A DNA stretch of 64,000 nt from positions 492,613-556,612 of the forward strand of contig NZ_NCJH01000001.1 in NCBI RefSeq assembly GCF_002278925.1. The letters run 5' to 3'. The translations under genes were made by a program, and so were the position numbers. The stretch comes from Polaromonas sp. 39-63-25 (GTDB lineage: Bacteria; Pseudomonadota; Gammaproteobacteria; Burkholderiales; Burkholderiaceae_C). Of the stretch, positions 14,578 through 24,431 are shown one piece after another (positions within the stretch are counted from its first letter, which is position 1; the number at the start of each line of letters is the position of its first letter). The notes under the pieces are model-generated. The model was not told the origin of the DNA, did no database searches, and saw nothing but the letters and a program-made list of their open reading frames with translations.

Positions 14578-14949
14578 TCACCCGCCCTGCTCCGGGTCGG
14601 TGAGGTCCGTGTATTTCCGGCTGGAGCCGCGCGCCCGGTCCACCGGGTATTTTTCGGCATTGACAGCCAGCTTCAGCCGCGCCGCTTCCAGCAAATCGAT
14701 CTGCAGCTTGTCGCACAGCTGCAGCAGGTAGAGCAGCACATCGGCCGCCTCGGCGGCCACCTCGGCTTTTTTGGGTGCGGCCAGGTGGCGGCTTTGTTCT
14801 TCCGTCAGCCACTGGAAGTGCTCCAGCAACTCCGCCGCCTCCACCGACAGGGCCGACGCCAGGTTCTTGGGCGAATGAAACTGCGCCCAGTCGCGCGCCT
14901 GGGCAAAGTCGCGCAGGGACTGGGTCAGGGAAGGGAGGTCGTGGTTCAT
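14578..14949 (-). CDS. Small MazG-like nucleotide pyrophosphohydrolase (dCTPase-like), chromosomal copy
   Basis: A 123-residue all-alpha NTP pyrophosphatase. The Mg-binding motif EAAE (E37, E40) and EAAD (E67, D70) is intact. NLASALSVEAAELLEHFQW resembles RS21-C6/DCTPP1-type dCTP pyrophosphatases. The likely role is clearing non-canonical or excess nucleotides in the cytoplasm. The start is the ATG at 14949. A diverged paralogue lies at 21800-22150 in the island; both share nearly identical length and motif spacing. Confidence 0.85.
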   Translation of the reverse strand: MNHDLPSLTQSLRDFAQARDWAQFHSPKNLASALSVEAAELLEHFQWLTEEQSRHLAAPKKAEVAAEAADVLLYLLQLCDKLQIDLLEAARLKLAVNAEKYPVDRARGSSRKYTDLTDPEQGG

Positions 14950-15315
14950 GTCTTGGTATTTCCGGACCCATGGGCAGGGTCGAGTCTTGTCGGGAAGCTT
15001 GAAGCGCATGTTATGCGTTTCAGCCCCTGCAGGCCTGTTGCAGGCCTTCAAATAGCCGCGTCCATGCGAACCATTCATGCAAAAAACGGCTGTAGTCCAA
15101 TCAGGACGGGCGCCGGCAGCTATCAAAAAAAGAGCGACTGGCAGACTTCACCGGCAAACCGGCAGTCAAGCCCATCGCCCGGTTACCTCTCATCCGCCCG
15201 AAACAGCATCTCGCGCCGCGGCCCGGCCGTTCCGTCGCAATCCACCCCCGCGCCGGCCCTGGCACTCCTACCATCGCCTCCAGTTTCAACCCCCTCAACA
15301 CCCACGGAGCTCACC
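14950..15315. other. Intergenic stretch with repeat copy 5 and no gene seen
   Basis: 366 bp between divergent genes. It holds a short hairpin (AGGCCTG / CAGGCCT, about 15031-15047) and dispersed repeat copy 5. No credible coding region is seen; promoters for both flanking genes should lie here, but none is clear by eye. Confidence 0.5.
15081..15138 (+). repeat. Comamonadaceae-type intergenic repeat, copy 5
   Basis: cggctgtagtccaatcagga, then cgggcgccggcagctatcaa. Same order of blocks as the other copies. Confidence 0.65.
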
Positions 15316-16370: not shown

Positions 16371-16778
16371 CTAGCGCGCCGGCTTGGCGTTGTGCGCTGC
16401 AGCAGCGCGTATCAGCGCCTTGAAGGCCGCCTCGTCAAGGGCGTAGCCCTCCCCCAGATCAATGGCGCGGCGGGTGTTGCCTTCCAGGCTGGCGTTGAAC
16501 AGCTTTGAAGGGTCCTTGAGCGAAGCGCCTTTGGGGAAAGTCAGCTTCACCTTGACCTTGTAGGTCTCGCCGGTGCAGAGAATGCCGCCGTGCGACCAGA
16601 CCGGAATGCTCCACTTCCACTCCTCGACCACCGCCGGGTCGGCCTGCTGGATCAGCGCGCGGACATGGGCGAGCGTCTGGCCCCGCCAGTCGTCCAGGGA
16701 CTTGATCTTTGCGTCTATGAGTTGCGACGGGGACTCCGCCGCTGTGTCCTGCTTGGTCTTGCCTTGCTCTTTGCTCAT
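16371..16778 (-). CDS. DUF1801-domain protein
   Basis: A 135-residue cytoplasmic protein of the DUF1801 (YdhG-like) family. WRGQTLAHVRALIQQADPAVVEEWKWSIPVWSHGG and KVKLTFPKGASLKDPSKLFN are the family's two conserved blocks. The ATG at 16778 follows ggaggcaccctc, a good ribosome site. No enzymatic function is established for the family. A second DUF1801 gene, broken by a stop codon, lies just upstream. Confidence 0.82.
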   Translation of the reverse strand: MSKEQGKTKQDTAAESPSQLIDAKIKSLDDWRGQTLAHVRALIQQADPAVVEEWKWSIPVWSHGGILCTGETYKVKVKLTFPKGASLKDPSKLFNASLEGNTRRAIDLGEGYALDEAAFKALIRAAAAHNAKPAR

Positions 16779-16815
16779 GAGGGTGCCTCCTTCTTGATGC
16801 CAGACAACTGGCGTG

Positions 16816-17259
16816 TCACATTTTCTCGCCCGGCAACTGGCTGGCCTGCTTGATCCAGGCGACGAACTGGGCTTCGTCGATCTCCGCATCCTCGCGGATG
16901 TCAAGATAACGCGTGTCCTGGCTTTTCGATGCACCGGGTGGCATCGGCGACAGCGACTGCCCGCGGAAGAAGGTTACCTTGACCTACTTCGTGAAGCAAT
17001 GAAAGCTGAGGAACCAGCCCTCCTGCCCCGGCGTCCCATAAAACGGCGAGTTCCATTTGACGGCCTTGCGTACGCCGGGCACGGCAGCCACCACCAGCTT
17101 GTCGAGCCGGCGCCCGATATCCTGCTTCCAGCCCGGCATGGCCGCGAGATAGGCCAACACCGGTGCATCGCCTTCGCCCTTGGGGATCTGCGGGTTGCCG
17201 CCGGAAAGCAGCACCGGCTTGCTGGTTTTCGCTGTGGGTTGCGGTTTTGCTTTGGTCAC
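16816..17259 (-). pseudogene. Second DUF1801-domain gene interrupted by an in-frame amber codon
   Basis: Reading from a GTG at 17259, the frame encodes KPVLLSGGNPQIPKGEGDAP, AAMPGWKQDIGRRLD, VKWNSPFYGTPG and FLSFHCFTK, then TAG (16984-16986). The same frame then continues without break as VKVTFFRGQSLSP and YLDIREDAEIDEAQFVAWIK to a TGA at 16816-16818. Both halves are recognisable DUF1801 sequence. The amber codon sits where relatives usually have tyrosine (KYVKVTFF), so a single TAC-to-TAG change explains it. It may be a real pseudogene, or a sequencing error. Confidence 0.75.
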
Positions 17260-17528
17260 TGCATGCGCCCAATGGCCGCCGTGGCCCAGGCCATCTCGCT
17301 GCGTGGAATAGGCAGCGCAGCCCGCGCCACCCGGCGCCCGCGCGGCCCCGCCGGCGCCGGGCTGTCTGTGACGCGCTGGCTCTCCTGCTCGGGCGTCATG
17401 TGGTGCGGCACGCCGCCCTGTAGCCTGGCATAAGGGTCGGGGGAGGATGGGGCGACCAGCAGGGTGTGGTGGGCGCCGACGGCGCCTGCTGTAAAGGCGG
17501 CGGCCAGGACTAAGTTTCTGCATTGCAT
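17256..17528 (-). CDS. Small exported hypothetical protein
   Basis: A 90-residue open frame beginning MQCRNLVLAAAFTAGAVGAHH, which reads as a signal peptide. A proline-rich mature part with VPHHMTPEQESQRV and ALPIPRSEMAWATAA follows. Its stop overlaps the GTG start proposed for the broken DUF1801 gene (GTGA), suggesting translational coupling. I do not recognise a domain. Codon use resembles the high-GC backbone, so the gene lies outside the AT-richer island that starts about 100 bp away. Confidence 0.45.
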   Translation of the reverse strand: MQCRNLVLAAAFTAGAVGAHHTLLVAPSSPDPYARLQGGVPHHMTPEQESQRVTDSPAPAGPRGRRVARAALPIPRSEMAWATAAIGRMQ

Positions 17529-17711
17529 GCTGGTTTTCCCGTGAAATGAGATCCACTTGTGAGCGCGCCAGGGAAATGCACCATACCAGACGGTCGCGGC
17601 GCCGGATTTCGCGGCGCATCCTCCAATTAGATGAGGAAGATTTTTATCAAACCTCTTACTATGACCTTTACAAGTTCTGCCACATACACCTGAGCGAAAG
17701 AATCACCATTT

Positions 17712-18665
17712 ATGTTTGCCATAGCGCCATACCTTGTCGAAGTTAAGGACGAAAAAAAGCAGCCGCAGGATTTGTGGGATTTCTATAACAAACAAAACCT
17801 GCGAACAGTTCTTCTTGACTATTACAAGACCCAGCTAGGTAACTATCAGGTTGCGCCGAATAAGGGCAAAAAGATGTTCCTCGTCGCAAAACTCTTCAAA
17901 GGGACACCCACCTCAGTCACCGGCATATATCAAACCGGGGCTTTTGGATTCGAATCGGACATTTACAGCACCACAAAGAAAACAATTGCGCACAATCGCC
18001 AAAGTGACGAGGCTGACATGATGCCCTTCAATTTTTCTTTTTACATGCCCCAACAAACAACTTCAGGCCAGCGTAAGCGAGGTTTGCTTCTTTTGGGGAG
18101 ATTCAACACTCTCGGAGTTCGTCAGCTGACACTCCCACATCTACAGAAGCATTTCAAAAACCGATTTCCGGAATTTTCTCTGGAAATAAACAGAGTCGTT
18201 CCTAGCATCGTGTTAGAAACTCTTATGAGTCAAGGAACACTAAAAACAATCCGCTTGGTGAAGAAAATTCTACCCAGTGACCTCGCTGACGTCTTTTCCA
18301 GTGAAGACAAAGAGAAAGTCAGCGAGATCGAAATGGTTATACGAACGAAGCGGAAGTCCTCATTTAGCGATATCGATTGGTTGATAAGGGCTGTTGAGGC
18401 GAAGACGCACCCCCGAGATATTGTCACGATTCCCGGGTTCAATCATGACAATATCAAGCTCGAAATCCAATTAGACGGACACCCTCGCATAGTAGATCTC
18501 GGCAATACAGGAAAGCTTTCATCCAACATTGAAATTTCCAGTGTCAAAGTTCACACCAATGGACATCCAGATGCAAAAAGCTGGCTAGGAGAGGCAGACG
18601 ATCTCGCTTCAAGCATCGTGAAATCTTGGGGCGTTAAGGGAATGACGTGGCAATCAAGGCTTTAG
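17712..18665 (+). CDS. Uncharacterised soluble protein, partner of a four-TM protein
   Basis: A 317-residue protein I do not recognise. It has no signal peptide or membrane segment. A central part reads GLLLLGRFNTLGVRQLTLP, FPEFSLEINRVVP and LPSDLADVF, and a charged C-terminal part contains IEMVIRTKRKSSF. Codon use is AT-rich and unlike the backbone. A membrane protein with four helices starts 19 bp downstream on the same strand, so the two probably form one system. A cytosolic ~315-residue protein plus a small four-TM protein recalls the size pattern of Kiwa (KwaB/KwaA), but I see no motif that proves homology, and the gene order is reversed. Confidence 0.7.
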   Translation: MFAIAPYLVEVKDEKKQPQDLWDFYNKQNLRTVLLDYYKTQLGNYQVAPNKGKKMFLVAKLFKGTPTSVTGIYQTGAFGFESDIYSTTKKTIAHNRQSDEADMMPFNFSFYMPQQTTSGQRKRGLLLLGRFNTLGVRQLTLPHLQKHFKNRFPEFSLEINRVVPSIVLETLMSQGTLKTIRLVKKILPSDLADVFSSEDKEKVSEIEMVIRTKRKSSFSDIDWLIRAVEAKTHPRDIVTIPGFNHDNIKLEIQLDGHPRIVDLGNTGKLSSNIEISSVKVHTNGHPDAKSWLGEADDLASSIVKSWGVKGMTWQSRL

Positions 18666-18684
18666 AATTTTTCGCTAGTCAATC

Positions 18685-19194
18685 ATGCTTACCAAACTGA
18701 ACCCGTTCGGGATTGTTAAAGCGCATTTCTGCTCGCTGAAACGATACGATACAGAGCAGCTATCGATAGGGGAGATTCTGTTTCACTTGTTTTTTCCAGC
18801 AGCCCTCTCCGGACTGCACTATTTGCTAGTGAGGGACATTTCTGAGAATGTCGTGGGCATTATCGTATCTGCCGCATCCATTGTTGCTGGATTGATGCTC
18901 AATCTCATGGTGTTAATTTACACCTTAGTCTATAACGCAAAAAATGGTGCAAAGCCGATATCAAATTTTTCTGACTTTAAGAATATTTCTTCTGAAACTA
19001 TTGCGTCAATTTCCTACAGCGTTCTTCTGTGCATTACGTTAGTAATTTCTTCATTTTTGATTCTGTCCCAATGGGCGCCAATATCAGTACTAGGAAGACT
19101 ATCCACTGTATATATCGGAACTTCAACAATACTATGCTTGTTGATAGTTTTGAAGCGATGCTATGCGATTATCCAGTTTGATTTAAAGCAATAG
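18685..19194 (+). CDS. Four-helix inner-membrane protein, partner of the preceding gene
   Basis: A 169-residue protein with four predicted membrane helices: about 32-50 (FHLFFPAALSGLHYLLV), 56-80 (GIIVSAASIVAGLMLNLMVL), 110-130 (SVLLCITLVISSFLIL) and 138-160 (YIGTSTILCLLIVL). A polar N-terminal segment of about 28 residues likely faces the cytoplasm. No domain is recognised. It is close behind the soluble partner and has the same low GC. In two-gene defence systems such proteins are membrane effectors or anchors; that role here is inference. Confidence 0.68.
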   Translation: MLTKLNPFGIVKAHFCSLKRYDTEQLSIGEILFHLFFPAALSGLHYLLVRDISENVVGIIVSAASIVAGLMLNLMVLIYTLVYNAKNGAKPISNFSDFKNISSETIASISYSVLLCITLVISSFLILSQWAPISVLGRLSTVYIGTSTILCLLIVLKRCYAIIQFDLKQ

Positions 19195-19310
19195 CACGAC
19201 GTAGGAAGTTTCCAAGTACTCCTCGGCCACCTGCCGTTGATCCTACAAAGGTAAAAGCCCAGCTGCTACGCAGTCCTTCAAAAGATCCATTGACTATGTG
19301 TGACTAAGTT

Positions 19311-21743
19311 CTATAGATCTATGACGGTGATCATTTCAGCAATGATCTTCACATCGCCCGCCGACTCAGCATCAAAAACCATTGGCTTAAAACCCGGATC
19401 CGTGCTGTCAGGCGATAGCTTCACAACAGAGTGAAACCAACCTCCGTCCGCAGACTGAGTTTTCTCGCTTGAATATATCTTGACGGTGTACGAACCGCCC
19501 GACTCAGGATCTTCAATGGATCGGTGCTCCGCAACAACCACCTTCCCTGCTCGGGTCCCTTGGGGATTTGCTCTGAAGAGGCACCAACTGCCATTCGGTA
19601 TCCGGCGATTCATGGACTCGCCAACAACCTGCGCAATGAACATGCCTGGCCGAGGGCGGTAAATATCTGGCAGCGCTACCCATTCGACTGCATCGTTGTC
19701 GAAGGACTGCACTTCGCTGAACATGCCGGCAGCGAGCTTGAGGGCAACCACCGGAACCGCATTCTTGAATGGCTTGACGTGTTTTCGGTCCAATGGCTTG
19801 AACGGCAACACATTGGTCTGAGCCGGGGGCGGGCTAACAGACGCGGCTGCGACAACATCAGCAACGGGACCGGAAGTCTGGGCACCCATGCGGGAACGAA
19901 AGTAGTCCGCTGTTTCCGTGTCTGTGCAATAGATGTAGCAGCCCTTCATGCCGCGAGTCATCAAGGTCCGGTAGGTGTTCTTGATGATCAGATCGAGCCG
20001 TTTTTTACCCTCGACCGGCTCCTCCCTCAGAAGCTTCCTCCAGCCGAAGATTGACTTGTCGGAGGAAGCCCGTTTCTCAGGCCGGCACACCACTTCACCA
20101 TTCCGGACCACGAAGTCGTCGCCGACGATCACGCCAATGTAGTCGACTTCAAGGCCTTGGCAGGTGTGAATACAACCGATCTCTTCCACCGAGTCGGACG
20201 CAACAATCCATAAGCTGGCGTCCTCCACCAAATTCCAGCGCTTCTTGAATCCATGCTCAGGAATCACAACGTCAAACGCCTCGGGATTCGTTTTGCTGGG
20301 CCACTTCCAGCAATAGCCGGCCACAACACGCGACTTGTTGTTGCCCTTGTTCTTTTCCACAATGCGTTGGTGCAGTTCAGTGGGTGAGTCGAACACCTGA
20401 AAGTCGAAGGCCGCTCCCTCTAAGAGAGGATTTGCGGTGGGCCGGACACCGAGCGTGTTATCCAGCCAGGCCAGGTATCCGTCTGAGCCATTGCAGCGAA
20501 ATTGGGACGCCAACTCCATCACTGAGACTTTGGCCCCCGCCTTTTCCGCCCATGCAGCAATCGCGGCCTTGCCACCAATATCCTTCAGCGTGACGCGCTG
20601 GTCTTCGTCAATAAAGAAGAACGTGCAATTTGCAGCACTGATGAGTTCCTTGATCTGGTTCTCGCCAAGGTTGCCGTAAAGGCCGCCCTTCTCGTTGAGG
20701 CGGTGCGCCTCGTCCACGATCAGCGTGTCAAAAATACCTGGATCCTTATCGACGAAGGCGCCAGACCCGGAGAAGAAATTGGATATGACGGATTTCCTGA
20801 AGTGCTTCACCAACTTGCTCTCATACACAGCGCGCGGAGCGGCATTTTTCGAAACGTACTTGCAGTTCTGTCCCGTCTTGGTAAGGGCAACCAGCAAATT
20901 GATGGCGACCACTGACTTCCCAGTTCCCGGACCGCCTTCAACGATCATCACGTGCTTCTTCTGCGGCTCCGCGTGTCGTGCCACAGCCAGCGCGCTTTCA
21001 TAAACGACCTTCTGATCGTCGATCAGCACAAACTCTTCCTGCCCCTTGAGCATCTTGACCAGGCTATCGGCCAACATCTTGGATGGACGAATTCTTCCGT
21101 TCTCGATCTTGTAGAGCAGCTCAATGCTATCGCCGTGCTTCACGTGTTTCTTGATAAACGCTCGCAGCTTGTCCCGCTCATCGTCGCCCTTCAGAAAAAT
21201 CGGAGCGCGCTCGATATAGGCTGCATAAAAGTCATGCGCGATCACACCGTCAGGCAGGTAGTTGTGCAAATAGGCACAAGGCTGGAGCGTCACTCCACCC
21301 TCATGGATGGCCTCGTTGAATCCATCCAGCAGGGCTGCGTACGACCAAGCCTGATACGAGGGGTGACTGACCTCCCGATGTGCGCCACCGGTGTAAGTGG
21401 AAACGACGCCGTCCATTTTCGTCAGCTTGGCAGTCTCCCATTGTTTCAGCTCGACAATGATGACTTGGGGCGACCTGTCTTCAGCCAATCCCGTCAGGAT
21501 GAAGTCAACCCGTTTTCCGCTTTGCGGGATGTTGTACTCAATCGCTACCCCGGCATCGGCTGGAATACCGTCGTCGTTGAGGACGCGCGCCATGCAAACG
21601 AGAGAAGAGCGCCAGGAATTGATTTCTGAGGGCCCAACCCTGTGTCCAAGTTTCTGGAAAAAGGCGTTGCTGACAACCACCTCGATGGCGGTGCTGTGCA
21701 CTTGCTCAAGAAACTTTGATTTGGTTGCCTGATAGACGATCAC
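19311..21743 (-). CDS. PD-(D/E)XK nuclease - SF1 (DUF2075/Schlafen-type) helicase - S24 LexA-like protease fusion
   Basis: An 810-residue, three-part protein. Residues 1-130 are a PD-(D/E)XK-type nuclease region (D80, then E98-L-K100 in VIIVELKQW). Residues about 240-640 are a DUF2075 helicase with Walker A GGPGTGKS (270-277) and Walker B LIVDEAH (341-347). Residues about 665-810 match an S24 peptidase: possible self-cleavage bond A672-G673 (LAAGMFSE), nucleophile S710 in VGESM, and lysine K755 in TVKIY. Start is a GTG at 21743 with an AGGA about 14 nt upstream. The MazG-like gene lies 56 bp upstream on the same strand, forming a probable operon. This suggests a DNA-damage- or phage-triggered defence enzyme; self-cleavage is inferred, not shown. 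Confidence 0.82.
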   Translation of the reverse strand: MIVYQATKSKFLEQVHSTAIEVVVSNAFFQKLGHRVGPSEINSWRSSLVCMARVLNDDGIPADAGVAIEYNIPQSGKRVDFILTGLAEDRSPQVIIVELKQWETAKLTKMDGVVSTYTGGAHREVSHPSYQAWSYAALLDGFNEAIHEGGVTLQPCAYLHNYLPDGVIAHDFYAAYIERAPIFLKGDDERDKLRAFIKKHVKHGDSIELLYKIENGRIRPSKMLADSLVKMLKGQEEFVLIDDQKVVYESALAVARHAEPQKKHVMIVEGGPGTGKSVVAINLLVALTKTGQNCKYVSKNAAPRAVYESKLVKHFRKSVISNFFSGSGAFVDKDPGIFDTLIVDEAHRLNEKGGLYGNLGENQIKELISAANCTFFFIDEDQRVTLKDIGGKAAIAAWAEKAGAKVSVMELASQFRCNGSDGYLAWLDNTLGVRPTANPLLEGAAFDFQVFDSPTELHQRIVEKNKGNNKSRVVAGYCWKWPSKTNPEAFDVVIPEHGFKKRWNLVEDASLWIVASDSVEEIGCIHTCQGLEVDYIGVIVGDDFVVRNGEVVCRPEKRASSDKSIFGWRKLLREEPVEGKKRLDLIIKNTYRTLMTRGMKGCYIYCTDTETADYFRSRMGAQTSGPVADVVAAASVSPPPAQTNVLPFKPLDRKHVKPFKNAVPVVALKLAAGMFSEVQSFDNDAVEWVALPDIYRPRPGMFIAQVVGESMNRRIPNGSWCLFRANPQGTRAGKVVVAEHRSIEDPESGGSYTVKIYSSEKTQSADGGWFHSVVKLSPDSTDPGFKPMVFDAESAGDVKIIAEMITVIDL

Positions 21744-21799
21744 TTGGGTTGCACCATTCCTATTTTTGATAAGTGCCGGCAGGGTATCCGGTCAGCAAC

Positions 21800-22150
21800 T
21801 CATATCTCCGTATATTTTTTGCTGGAACCCAGTGGACGATCGACCGGATATTTTTCGGCGTTCACAGCTAGTTTGGTCCGAGCCGCGTCCACCAAGTCGA
21901 TCTGAAGCTTGTCGCAGAGCTGCAGTAGATACAGGAGCACGTCGGCGGCCTCTGCAGCGACTTTAGCTTTCGCCTCGGAGGGAAGATTGCGACTTTGGTC
22001 TTCCGTCAGCCACTGGAAATGCTCCAGCAGTTCCGATGCTTCCACCGTAAGCGCCGACGCGAGATTCTTGGGCGAATGGAACTGCTCCCATTCACGCTCC
22101 TTGGCAAAGGCGCGAAGGGCTTGTGTGATGGACTCAAGTTCGGTGTTCAT
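21800..22150 (-). CDS. Small MazG/dCTPase-like nucleotide pyrophosphohydrolase, island copy
   Basis: A 116-residue paralogue of the protein at 14578-14949. The metal motif is intact (E37-AS-E40, E67-AA-D70), as is the DCTPP1-like NLASALTVEASELLEHFQW. The DNA has diverged well beyond a recent duplication. It is first in a probable two-gene operon with the nuclease-helicase-S24 protein (56-bp gap). A nucleotide-degrading enzyme beside a nuclease suggests depletion of a nucleotide pool, for example dCTP, during phage attack; that role is inferred from context. Confidence 0.85.
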   Translation of the reverse strand: MNTELESITQALRAFAKEREWEQFHSPKNLASALTVEASELLEHFQWLTEDQSRNLPSEAKAKVAAEAADVLLYLLQLCDKLQIDLVDAARTKLAVNAEKYPVDRPLGSSKKYTEI

Positions 22151-22377
22151 GCGAGACCTGCGTCAGGAAATTTCGATCCTGATGAAGATGTCAAAGGCTG
22201 GAAGCTGGTAAAGAAGATAGTCACTGTGATTCACCGCGTGAAAGTTGACCCATGGCGCCATCGCCCTTGAATGCAGACCATTCTAGGTGACCACCTGCGA
22301 GTTGCCATCCCCTATTAAGAGGATCCTGTACACGCATAGCAAGCGGTATAACTGGGTTTTCTCAACAGTTGCAAGCC

Positions 22378-22869
22378 ATGCCTAAACTGACTCCCTATCA
22401 AGTCAACGTAGCCGCCGAGGCCTTTACCTGCGTAGTTATGTCACAGGCCGGATATGACGTAGCGATGCAATACGGAACAACTCAACCAGATTGGGACATC
22501 CTTGCAACAAAGGGATCACGGACTCTTAAACTTCAGGTAAAGGGAAGCCAGACCGGCGGATGGGGCCTCTTCCAGGGAAATCTGAAAGATGCGGATTACC
22601 ATGGCGCACTTGATGCATGGCTGGCCCGGGAATTGGAAGACGTGGTTTACGTATTTGTGCAGTTCAAAAACGTGCCGGTTGGTGCCGCACCTAGATGCTA
22701 TTTAGCTCGTCCCTTAGAAATTGTCCAGCACATGCGCACCACACGCGGCGGACACGCGCGGACAACACTCAAAGAGAAACACGCCTATAGTCGCGGCGTT
22801 GGTGCGGGTCACGAAGACGTTATCCCACCTAGCTGGTTGTTCTCTCACTCCCGAGTTGACACGCTGTAG
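22378..22869 (+). CDS. Small PD-(D/E)XK-like nuclease-fold protein (QxK variant)
   Basis: A 163-residue protein. PDWDILATKGSRTLKLQVKGSQ gives an Asp followed by Q-x-K, the variant of the PD-(D/E)XK core seen in some small endonuclease-like families. An N-terminal helix (YQVNVAAEAFTCVVMSQAGYDV) fits the fold's opening. The ATG at 22378 is used; a TTG three codons upstream is possible. It diverges from the MazG-helicase operon, with 227 bp between them. Function is unknown; nucleic-acid cleavage or binding is plausible. Confidence 0.62.
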   Translation: MPKLTPYQVNVAAEAFTCVVMSQAGYDVAMQYGTTQPDWDILATKGSRTLKLQVKGSQTGGWGLFQGNLKDADYHGALDAWLARELEDVVYVFVQFKNVPVGAAPRCYLARPLEIVQHMRTTRGGHARTTLKEKHAYSRGVGAGHEDVIPPSWLFSHSRVDTL

Positions 22870-22902
22870 AAGTCGAGGCAATCGACGACGGACGTTGGCC
22901 CA

Positions 22903-23098
22903 CTACTCCGTCATCTTCAACCCCACCCCAAACCCCCGCCCCACCCCATACCGTCCCATCATCCCCCGGTACCACCGCTGCACATGCGGAAAGTCCGCCA
23001 GATCAACCTTGTGCCGCTCATGCCGCCAGACCCAGCCGACGATGGCGAAGTCGGCTATTGAGATTTCATCGCCTGCCACAGGGACGTTGGTCCTGTCG
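22903..23098 (-). pseudogene. Truncated glutathione S-transferase (C-terminal 65 codons only)
   Basis: The minus strand reads AGDEISIADFAIVGWVWR, HERHKVDLADFPHVQRWYRG and GVGRGFGVGLKMTE before TAG at 22903-22905. This is nearly the same as the end of the intact gene at 23706-24335. Differences are scattered and mostly conservative, so it was once a functional paralogue. Homology stops at about 23,098, where the end of the unrelated 23104-23670 gene begins; the first two thirds of the gene are missing. It marks a recombination junction at the island's right edge. Confidence 0.8.
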
Positions 23099-23103
23099 CT
23101 ACC

Positions 23104-23670
23104 TTACGGCACCCGCGCTCCCGAGTTGCCAACTCTCTGTTGCCGCTCCCTTGCCACTCTCCTATCCCCGATTGCTGAAGCCAGAAGTAACAGGGCCATA
23201 CCGCCAAACATCACCCAACGACCAGCCGTTAAGCTGATCGCGCTTTGATAGTGAGAGACGATTCGGCTATACGGTAGCGTAATGCCTTTGTCGCATCTGA
23301 CGCTCCAAATACGGCGGTCGGAAGGAAGGACGAGGTAACGGATGCGTTCAACTTTCAGCTCAGCCAGGCATCCATGAAGTTGTTTGAGCTCGTAATCTGT
23401 AGCCTCTGTGAATAGCAGCCCTTTGCGCGTTGCAAGGTGCAGGAGGTCATCAGGAAAGTTGAAGCTCTCAGTTCGGCCGTCAAGGAGTTCGAGTCTTATA
23501 TGCGGCTGATCTCGGTGAACTCTAAGAATCTTCCCATGCACGACTTCTGTATTTGCCTCCGCCGGAGGCGGATTCAGATGCATAACAGCCATGGGGTACC
23601 CGACTAATACGCTTACTACGATTACCCACCACAGTTTGTAGTTGTGATTCAGCCAAAAACGGTGAAGCAT
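23104..23670 (-). CDS. Hypothetical membrane protein with two terminal helices
   Basis: A 188-residue protein, not recognised. An N-terminal helix (KLWWVIVVSVLVGYPMAVM), a roughly 110-residue extracytoplasmic part (GKILRVHRDQPHIRLELLDGRTESFNFP looks like a small beta domain) and a second helix near the C terminus (WVMFGGMALLLLASAIG) are visible. It is sandwiched between the truncated and intact gst copies, so it probably arrived with that rearrangement. No partner gene is evident. Confidence 0.6.
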   Translation of the reverse strand: MLHRFWLNHNYKLWWVIVVSVLVGYPMAVMHLNPPPAEANTEVVHGKILRVHRDQPHIRLELLDGRTESFNFPDDLLHLATRKGLLFTEATDYELKQLHGCLAELKVERIRYLVLPSDRRIWSVRCDKGITLPYSRIVSHYQSAISLTAGRWVMFGGMALLLLASAIGDRRVARERQQRVGNSGARVP

Positions 23671-23705
23671 CTTTTTGCCTCCTAAGCTTGCCGAGACCTA
23701 CAGAA

Positions 23706-24335
23706 TCACTTCAACGCCACCCCAAACCCCCGCCCCACCCCATCCCGCGCCATCATCCCCCGGTACCACCTCAACACATTCGGAAAATCCGCCAGATCGA
23801 TCTTGTGCCGCTCATGCCGCCAGACCCAGCCGACGATGGCGAAGTCGGCTATGGAGATTTCTTCGCCTGCGAAGAAGGCGTGGTCGGCCAGGCGGCGGTC
23901 CATCACGCCGTAGAGGCGCTTCGTTTCGGCCATGAAGCGCTCCAGGGCGTAGCGGCGGTCGGCTTCGTCTTTGAGTGCGATGAAGTGGTGCACCTGGCCG
24001 GGCATGGGGCCGAAGCCGCCCACCTGGAACATCAGCCACTCCAAAGCGGCGACGCGGGCGCGCGGGTTTTTGGGCAAAAACTGGCCGGTCTTTTCGGCCA
24101 GGTAGATCAGGATGGCGCCGGACTCGAAGATGCTGATGGGTTCACCGCCCGGGCCGTCGGGGTCGATGATGGCGGGGATCTTGTTGTTGGGGCTGATCTT
24201 CAGGAACTCGGGCGCGGTCTGCTCGCCCTGGGTGATGTCGACCACGTGCACCTCATAGGGCAGGCCCATTTCTTCGAGGGCAACGCTGATCTTGCGGCCG
24301 TTGGGGGTGTCGAAGGCGTAGAGCTGGATGGGCAT
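23706..24335 (-). CDS. Glutathione S-transferase, YfcG/YghU-like
   Basis: A 209-residue cytoplasmic GST. The start at 24335 gives MPIQLYAFDTPNGRKISVALEE; TPNG is the active-site loop of the Nu/YfcG group, which reduces disulfides with glutathione. ISPNNKIPAIIDPDG and IFESGAILIYLAEK form the glutathione site, and an all-helical C-terminal domain follows. A partial paralogue of its last ~65 codons lies at 22903-23098. Confidence 0.88.
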   Translation of the reverse strand: MPIQLYAFDTPNGRKISVALEEMGLPYEVHVVDITQGEQTAPEFLKISPNNKIPAIIDPDGPGGEPISIFESGAILIYLAEKTGQFLPKNPRARVAALEWLMFQVGGFGPMPGQVHHFIALKDEADRRYALERFMAETKRLYGVMDRRLADHAFFAGEEISIADFAIVGWVWRHERHKIDLADFPNVLRWYRGMMARDGVGRGFGVALK

Positions 24336-24431
24336 GGGGTTGGTCTTGTTGGGTGGTGGGTTCGGGATGCAGTCTGCCACAGGGTGGGCGGTGGTGCTGG
24401 GCGCGCGGATGCGGGGATGGGTGCGGGGTCG

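Follow-up and report, generated by a model that had tools for sequence, protein, structure and literature searches.

The window analysed here is a 64,000-nucleotide stretch of Polaromonas sp. 39-63-25 (contig NZ_NCJH01000001.1, positions 492,613 to 556,612), in which two adjacent genes encode a MazG-like nucleotide pyrophosphohydrolase and an 810-residue protein that joins a PD-(D/E)XK-type nuclease region and an SLFN-g3/DUF2075 helicase to a C-terminal S24 (LexA/CI/UmuD-like) module. This combination is widespread and not specific to the locus. Our sequence comparisons suggest that the S24 module is portable among several unrelated restriction-type enzymes, and since its catalytic dyad and cleavage site are nearly invariant, self-cleavage appears to be under selection. 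We favor, at about an even chance, the hypothesis that damage-triggered self-cleavage followed by degradation switches the enzyme off.

The S24 module and its predicted cleavage site

The gene pair and the parts of the larger protein are as follows (ORF, open reading frame):

19311-21743 (-): nuclease-helicase-S24 protein, 810 residues, GTG start (ORF call, Pfam, 58-row alignment, model at pLDDT 85)
21800-22150 (-): MazG-like nucleotide pyrophosphohydrolase, 116 residues, first gene of the pair (Pfam PF12643; E37, E40, E67 and D70 conserved)
21114-21743 (-): N-terminal PD-(D/E)XK-type nuclease region, residues ~1-210, with D80, E98 and K100 (motif; family assigned by eye)
19920-20957 (-): SLFN-g3/DUF2075 SF1 helicase, residues 263-608 (Pfam SLFN-g3_helicase, PF09848, 7.6e-99)
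19794-19883 (-): flexible linker, residues 621-650 (pLDDT 33 and 30 for residues 621-640, 56 for 641-650)
19314-19796 (-): C-terminal S24 module, residues 650-810 (Pfam, model, Foldseek, 81-row alignment)
19725-19733 (-): predicted self-cleavage site Ala671-Ala672|Gly673 (P2 Ala in 94 of 95 modules, P1 Ala in 95 of 95, P1' Gly in 93 of 95)
19614-19616 (-): catalytic Ser710 (95 of 95 modules, a count partly built into the search)
19479-19481 (-): catalytic Lys755 (95 of 95 modules, with the same reservation)

An initial annotation of this DNA had recognized the S24 domain, its Ser710/Lys755 pair and the Ala672-Gly673 bond, and our results bear this out. Peptidase_S24 scores above the Pfam cut-off at residues 664-741 (7.6e-6; 26.1 bits against 23.3), and the AlphaFold model of the module alone (pLDDT 82) retrieved by Foldseek 17 best PDB matches that were all LexA, lambda CI or UmuD, including RecA-bound LexA and UmuD structures. 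The best of these had an E-value of 6e-6 and a TM-score to the query of 0.56, and 9 of the 17 lay at E 0.001 or better. A chance match to S24 was ruled out by the joint conservation of fold, site and dyad. The geometry of the cut site differs between models, a strand ending there in the full-length model and a helix occupying it in the module alone. Like LexA, UmuD and CI, the module thus has the common fold, the Ser-Lys dyad and the Ala-Gly site, and its -AA tail is LexA-like. The protein differs from LexA and CI, however, in that the Pfam scan found no DNA-binding repressor domain: the N-terminus is a nuclease-type region followed by the helicase, and the module stands behind nuclease-helicases and restriction subunits.

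Across the window protein and its 57 full-length relatives (the 58-row alignment) A671, A672, G673, S710 and K755 are invariant. The wider counts refer to the 95 modules with readable sites, after exclusion of 12 duplicate loci and of L012, a broken copy in which the site is missing. The alanine at P2 separates two kinds of control, whose cleavage sites were located by letter pattern. LexA-type controls from the host family read V-A-A|G in 30 of 30; these are the 30 best PF00717 matches (the window genome and 29 others) in a 40-genome search, and the LexA label is our own. Only one of 14 readable UmuD/CI-type controls (22 loci less one duplicate, L156, and seven that showed no readable Ala-Gly site) has Ala at P2, and one more is ambiguous, as two sites fit in L153, one of them Ala-Ala. 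Cleavage of the window protein would be predicted to release a core ending in -Leu-Lys-Leu-Ala-Ala behind a linker modelled as disordered. The ssrA tag ends in -LAA, and the window genome encodes ClpX as well as a LexA-type protein with -VAA|G. According to a passage in PMC5742171, citing Neher 2003, buried ClpXP C-degrons lie next to the cut in E. coli LexA and LexA-like proteins.

Portability of the module and conservation of the nuclease-helicase core

Our scan for the S24 module in a collection of 84,980 species genomes gave at least 589 pattern matches, at least 541 of them encoding a relative, and the best 80 loci were kept. Sequence like the window nuclease-helicase is present in 67 of these 80 (in 57 as one full-length ORF, so that the 810-residue gene is not unique) and absent from 13. 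Under even sampling and at E 1e-20, the module was found in 9 of 369 class genomes and 5 of 398 phylum genomes, the window genome being counted in both.

Several kinds of enzyme carry the module at their ends. HsdR-type proteins do so in eight loci (L010, L011, L040, L059, L062, L076, L098, L118); HsdM and HsdS adjoin in L062 and L081 and HsdS in L076 and L078; L078 and L081 were labelled HsdR on the module tree by their neighbors and size and not by a domain scan. In L039, L064 and L119 the module ends type III-like Res proteins that have a DNA methylase as neighbor (in L119 one belonging to the type III family), and in L013 it ends an HNH protein. A GIY-YIG/SLFN-g3 helicase beside MazG (L008), in which GIY-YIG scores 22.2 bits, just below the cut-off of 22.6, also carries it, as do three additional SLFN-g3 proteins in other genomes (L102-L104). 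Four loci (L045, L071, L086, L014) are too short or truncated for assignment. The Pfam S24 score falls below the cut-off in L038, L040, L059 and L098, with none at E 0.001 in L062; because the Pfam model scores low, the assignment in these five rests on the module's own profile. In L038 (6296-7471) the module sits on a protein in which no other Pfam domains were found. Its neighbors are an AAA_23/SMC-like ATPase and a ResIII helicase, and the locus is perhaps another S24-tagged restriction system.

Modularity shows most clearly in the pair L074 and L079. Over 3012 bp their MazG and upstream DNA shows 93.7% identity, and over 1102 bp their S24 and downstream DNA 90.7%; the modules themselves are 94% identical, whereas the proteins of the cores between them share only 33%. 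Apparently the helicase core was swapped between the two, which suggests that effectors can be exchanged beneath fixed control modules. On the module tree, architecture requires 6 changes against a minimum of 4, and the starred (well-supported) branches force no more than one HsdR origin. The main basis for exchange is therefore the pair L074/L079. The presence of S24 requires 7 changes on the helicase tree, of which 3 are forced by starred branches, so that a single origin of S24 on these helicases was not borne out; this tree is weakened by long branches (L079, L174, L175 and others).

The residues that the initial annotation assigned to the core were likewise correct. D80, E98, K100, G270, G273, G275, K276 and the DEAH residues D344, E345, A346 and H347 are invariant in the 58-row alignment, the Walker A motif among them, and all 73 rows, whether or not they carry S24, share the D...E-x-K motif. 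The N-terminal region lies outside every Pfam match, and its strands are modelled within the full-length protein; it is assigned as a putative PD-(D/E)XK-type nuclease from the invariant motif and the confident full-length model. In that model (pLDDT 85) a low-confidence stretch lies at residues 621-644, and Foldseek of the whole model placed SLFN11, RecD2 and Dna2 among the best PDB matches at TM-scores of only ~0.25.

Cores lacking S24 occur naturally. Their catalytic residues are the same in 11 of 11 rows, and all 17 motif positions checked are kept (position 277 being S or T). Bacterial and archaeal plasmids carry S24-less helicases, and so does a phage record; a scan of viral contigs with the core returned no relatives. 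Three copies (L096, L017, L019) are degraded or divided: only the two ends of the helicase remain in L096, a Halomonas plasmid copy splits helicase and S24 into separate ORFs, and a Marivirga copy is in pieces.

Candidate roles for self-cleavage

We hypothesize that the gene pair would be a restriction-type defense system in which a MazG-like pyrophosphohydrolase accompanies a PD-(D/E)XK/SLFN-g3 nuclease-helicase with a fused, portable LexA-type module. The intact enzyme would be active, and would cut or process invading DNA. When host DNA is damaged, RecA on single-stranded DNA, or the engagement of host DNA by the enzyme itself, would stimulate cleavage at Ala672|Gly673, leaving a freed core with a loose tail of up to ~50 residues and the C-terminus given above. 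Recognition of this tail by ClpXP-type proteases would then destroy the nuclease, providing an intrinsic restriction alleviation within a single protein. We infer each of these elements, that is, the defense role, the active intact form, the RecA trigger, the cleavage and the degradation. That the module is a portable and cargo-independent self-destruct tag, passed among SLFN-g3, HsdR, Res and HNH enzymes and exposing a ClpXP degron when cut, we consider a serious possibility, if somewhat short of even.

Cargo independence, the LexA-like -AA tail and the precedent of restriction alleviation lead us to favor an OFF switch. The conserved dyad and site, the linker modelled as disordered, the S24-less cores with their motif positions kept, and the ClpX and LexA-type protein of this genome also speak for it. 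Type I restriction-modification (R-M) is suppressed after DNA damage, presumably protecting the cell during repair, as stated in a part of PMC3874165, and for EcoKI the alleviation consists in destruction of HsdR by ClpXP, according to portions of PMC4231737 and PMC11109961. Such proteolytic loss of a helicase-nuclease after damage is what we propose here. The relevant part of PMC4231737 reports that the EcoKI HsdR degron was not found, and S24 goes unmentioned in the parts available of that paper, PMC11109961 and PMC3874165; in the window protein the switch would be built in.

The initial annotation had proposed the opposite sign, namely that S24 holds the nuclease-helicase inactive until phage-made damage and a RecA filament bring about cleavage, freeing an enzyme that is then active. 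Activation through S24 cleavage has a precedent in UmuD, and since S24-less cores with unaltered motif residues occur naturally, the product of cleavage would resemble them. A fitted inhibitory interface is, however, difficult to reconcile with one module on several unrelated kinds of enzyme and on cores of 33% identity, or with a linker that is modelled as disordered. Since the module is indifferent to its cargo, fitted autoinhibition is unlikely, and since the unmasking of a degron is generic and an inhibitory contact is not, a degron suits any cargo. Moreover, the P2 alanine marks the LexA type, which leads to destruction, and not the UmuD/CI type, and R-M enzymes do their work as DNA enters the cell, ahead of any damage. 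With S24-less cores that have the same residues, a portable module and a LexA-like tail, activation by cleavage is not the better reading, and we regard it as unlikely.

We find it more doubtful still that S24 acts by dimerizing the enzymes, cleavage then dismantling the assembly and altering its activity without proteolysis. The LexA/CI/UmuD fold does dimerize, and the idea is independent of cargo, but it leaves the near-invariant P2 alanine unexplained, and S24-less relatives are common. The dyad could also be constitutive, or answer a signal other than DNA damage in maturation or quality control. The lack of an SOS box near the operon agrees with this, whereas the RecA-bound LexA and UmuD structures among the matches do not, nor does the finding that the other Pfam domains in the scanned S24-tagged proteins are those of helicases, nucleases or restriction enzymes; we give it a slim chance.

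Our preference for an OFF switch should be interpreted with some caution, since several observations weigh against it. Cleavage and degradation are here predictions. The complete conservation of Ser and Lys (95 of 95 modules each) is partly built in, because the search patterns that yielded the best 80 loci contained Ser or Lys; the Ala-Ala-Gly site lay outside these patterns. Alanine at P2 also occurs in one phage-type repressor control (L161), and the -AA tail may be a mere cleavage requirement of this S24 subfamily. In L119, a type III-like Res on a viral contig (5310-8468), the site reads V-A-T, so that the P2 Ala and the Gly are lost while Ser and Lys are intact. Our scan for E. coli-type SOS boxes gave 18 matches at up to one mismatch against 18.9 expected, none of them between 18.2 and 32.8 kb and thus none near the operon, although the proposal requires none. 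Finally, the sections concerned in PMC4231737 describe EcoKI alleviation as acting on the engaged complex, argue that it is not a general SOS response, and report type IC alleviation as independent of ClpXP.

Most of what is known about how a host is protected from its own restriction enzymes when its DNA is damaged comes from EcoKI. If our hypothesis is true, a built-in LexA-type switch in nucleases of the type I, type III-like and SLFN-g3 kinds would be a direct and testable answer, S24 self-cleavage would come to include immune effectors besides repressors and UmuD, and the SOS trigger would be tied to immunity through protein chemistry alone.

Described systems share parts of this architecture. 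The best PADLOC matches, PDC-S41 (2.7e-17), AbiO (5.1e-10) and Nhi (1.8e-9), are partial and have the SLFN-g3/DUF2075 helicase domain in common with our protein; no full-length match to a described system was obtained from PADLOC, and none of its matches extends into the S24 region. Bacterial Schlafen anti-phage RNases (a 2025 preprint cited in a part of PMC12839542) share the Schlafen name, the helicase here being Pfam "Schlafen group 3"; they differ, as far as that part goes, from the window protein, whose N-terminus is a PD-(D/E)XK-type region. No description of S24-tagged restriction enzymes was found in the titles and abstract openings of the papers listed by our searches of the open-access literature, a coverage that gives no proof of novelty. 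Within the text available, PMC12839542 contains neither S24 nor MazG, PMC12255303 none of S24, LexA or SOS, PMC8569181 has S24 only as a figure number, and PMC3874165 lacks the term S24. The initial annotation needs correction in one respect, as the combination is not peculiar to this locus.

The MazG-like partner and the genomic setting

The MazG-like ORF lies upstream of the 810-residue ORF on the same strand, separated by 56 nt, and matches PF12643 at 3.4e-12. It has in common with DCTPP1-type pyrophosphatases this family and the ExxE...ExxD motif, and is here paired with a nuclease-helicase. E37 and E40 (the latter singled out in the initial annotation) are conserved in 62 of 63 rows, with one gap, and E67 and D70 in 63 of 63. 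The pairing noted at the outset recurs: a MazG-like ORF is present in the loci of 51 of the 57 full-length relatives (in 48 it precedes the larger gene on the same strand, and in 3 it lies downstream, once on the opposite strand) and absent from 6.

MazG accompanies the SLFN-g3 helicase and not the S24 module. The 13 non-SLFN S24 loci yielded none; upstream sequence is present in 8 of them, whereas the other 5 start at or within 150 nt of a contig end and so could show no MazG. Yet 6 of 12 S24-less helicase loci contain it within flanks of 1.5-4 kb (L009, L015 and L016, truncated or divergent, and L176 were excluded from the 12). As MazG goes with the helicase irrespective of S24, the notion that it acts within the S24 switch was rejected. 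In the initial annotation the enzyme was proposed to drain a nucleotide pool; our guess would be that it removes unusual or phage-modified deoxynucleoside triphosphates so that the nuclease can act. A second MazG-like gene of the window (14578-15126, -) is 77% identical to that of the pair, and matching DNA occurs in the same neighborhood in four genus relatives (L190-L193) and was not seen there in another, G059; this gene and the matching DNA in relatives point to a probable housekeeping origin of the enzyme type.

The setting is defense-like and comprises these features:

17500-23700: island of low GC at a cargo hotspot, adjoining gene 23706-24380 at its 3' end (GC profile; differing content in four relatives)
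16760-23705: cargo hotspot (different contents between common flanks in genus relatives)
22915-23076: direct repeat of 162 nt, matching the end of gene 23706-24380 (other copy at 23709-23870, 92%)

GC content is 0.43-0.58 at 17.5-24.0 kb, whereas it ranges over 0.60-0.71 at 13.5-17.5 kb and at 24-28 kb; low values also occur in two 500-base steps at 12-13.5 kb. The bordering gene (23706-24380, -) is glutathione S-transferase-like, judged by eye. In G059 a protein of 94% identity occupies the same site next to this gene, while L190-L193 share both flanks (left edge 15.2-17.3 kb, right edge 23.7 kb) and differ in what lies between: a type I R-M system in L192, the PADLOC candidates PDC-M05 and PDC-S14 in L193, and no PADLOC match among the 3 ORFs scanned in the other two. 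Only 4 of 87 genus genomes encode the helicase; it carries S24 in the window genome and in G059 and lacks it in the other two.

This setting bears on a further alternative, in which the protein is a Dna2/RecD2-like DNA-repair nuclease-helicase with damage-responsive turnover, served by a house-cleaning MazG. RecD2 and Dna2 are among the Foldseek matches, albeit at low TM-scores, and MazG-like enzymes are often housekeeping, as the 77% paralogue in the window may illustrate. The patchy distribution in the genus argues against such a role, however, and so do the low-GC island at a hotspot that in relatives holds type I R-M or PADLOC candidates, the relatives on plasmids and in a phage record, and the presence of the module on type I and type III-like R-M enzymes. 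We therefore give a non-defense role little credence.

Also within the island, at 17712-19194 (+), are two low-GC ORFs of 317 and 169 residues, the shorter membrane protein-like by eye; neither had a Pfam or PHROGs match or appeared in the other genomes' loci compared. A Hymenobacter plasmid (L169:2501-6487) carries two DUF2075 genes in tandem, with a DNA methyltransferase gene and a DUF4747 gene nearby, and the ORF at 17712-18665 was ruled out as a counterpart of the latter, there being no similarity. The two copies of the 162-nt repeat flank an ORF of 188 residues of unknown family, and the repeat is perhaps a mark of integration.

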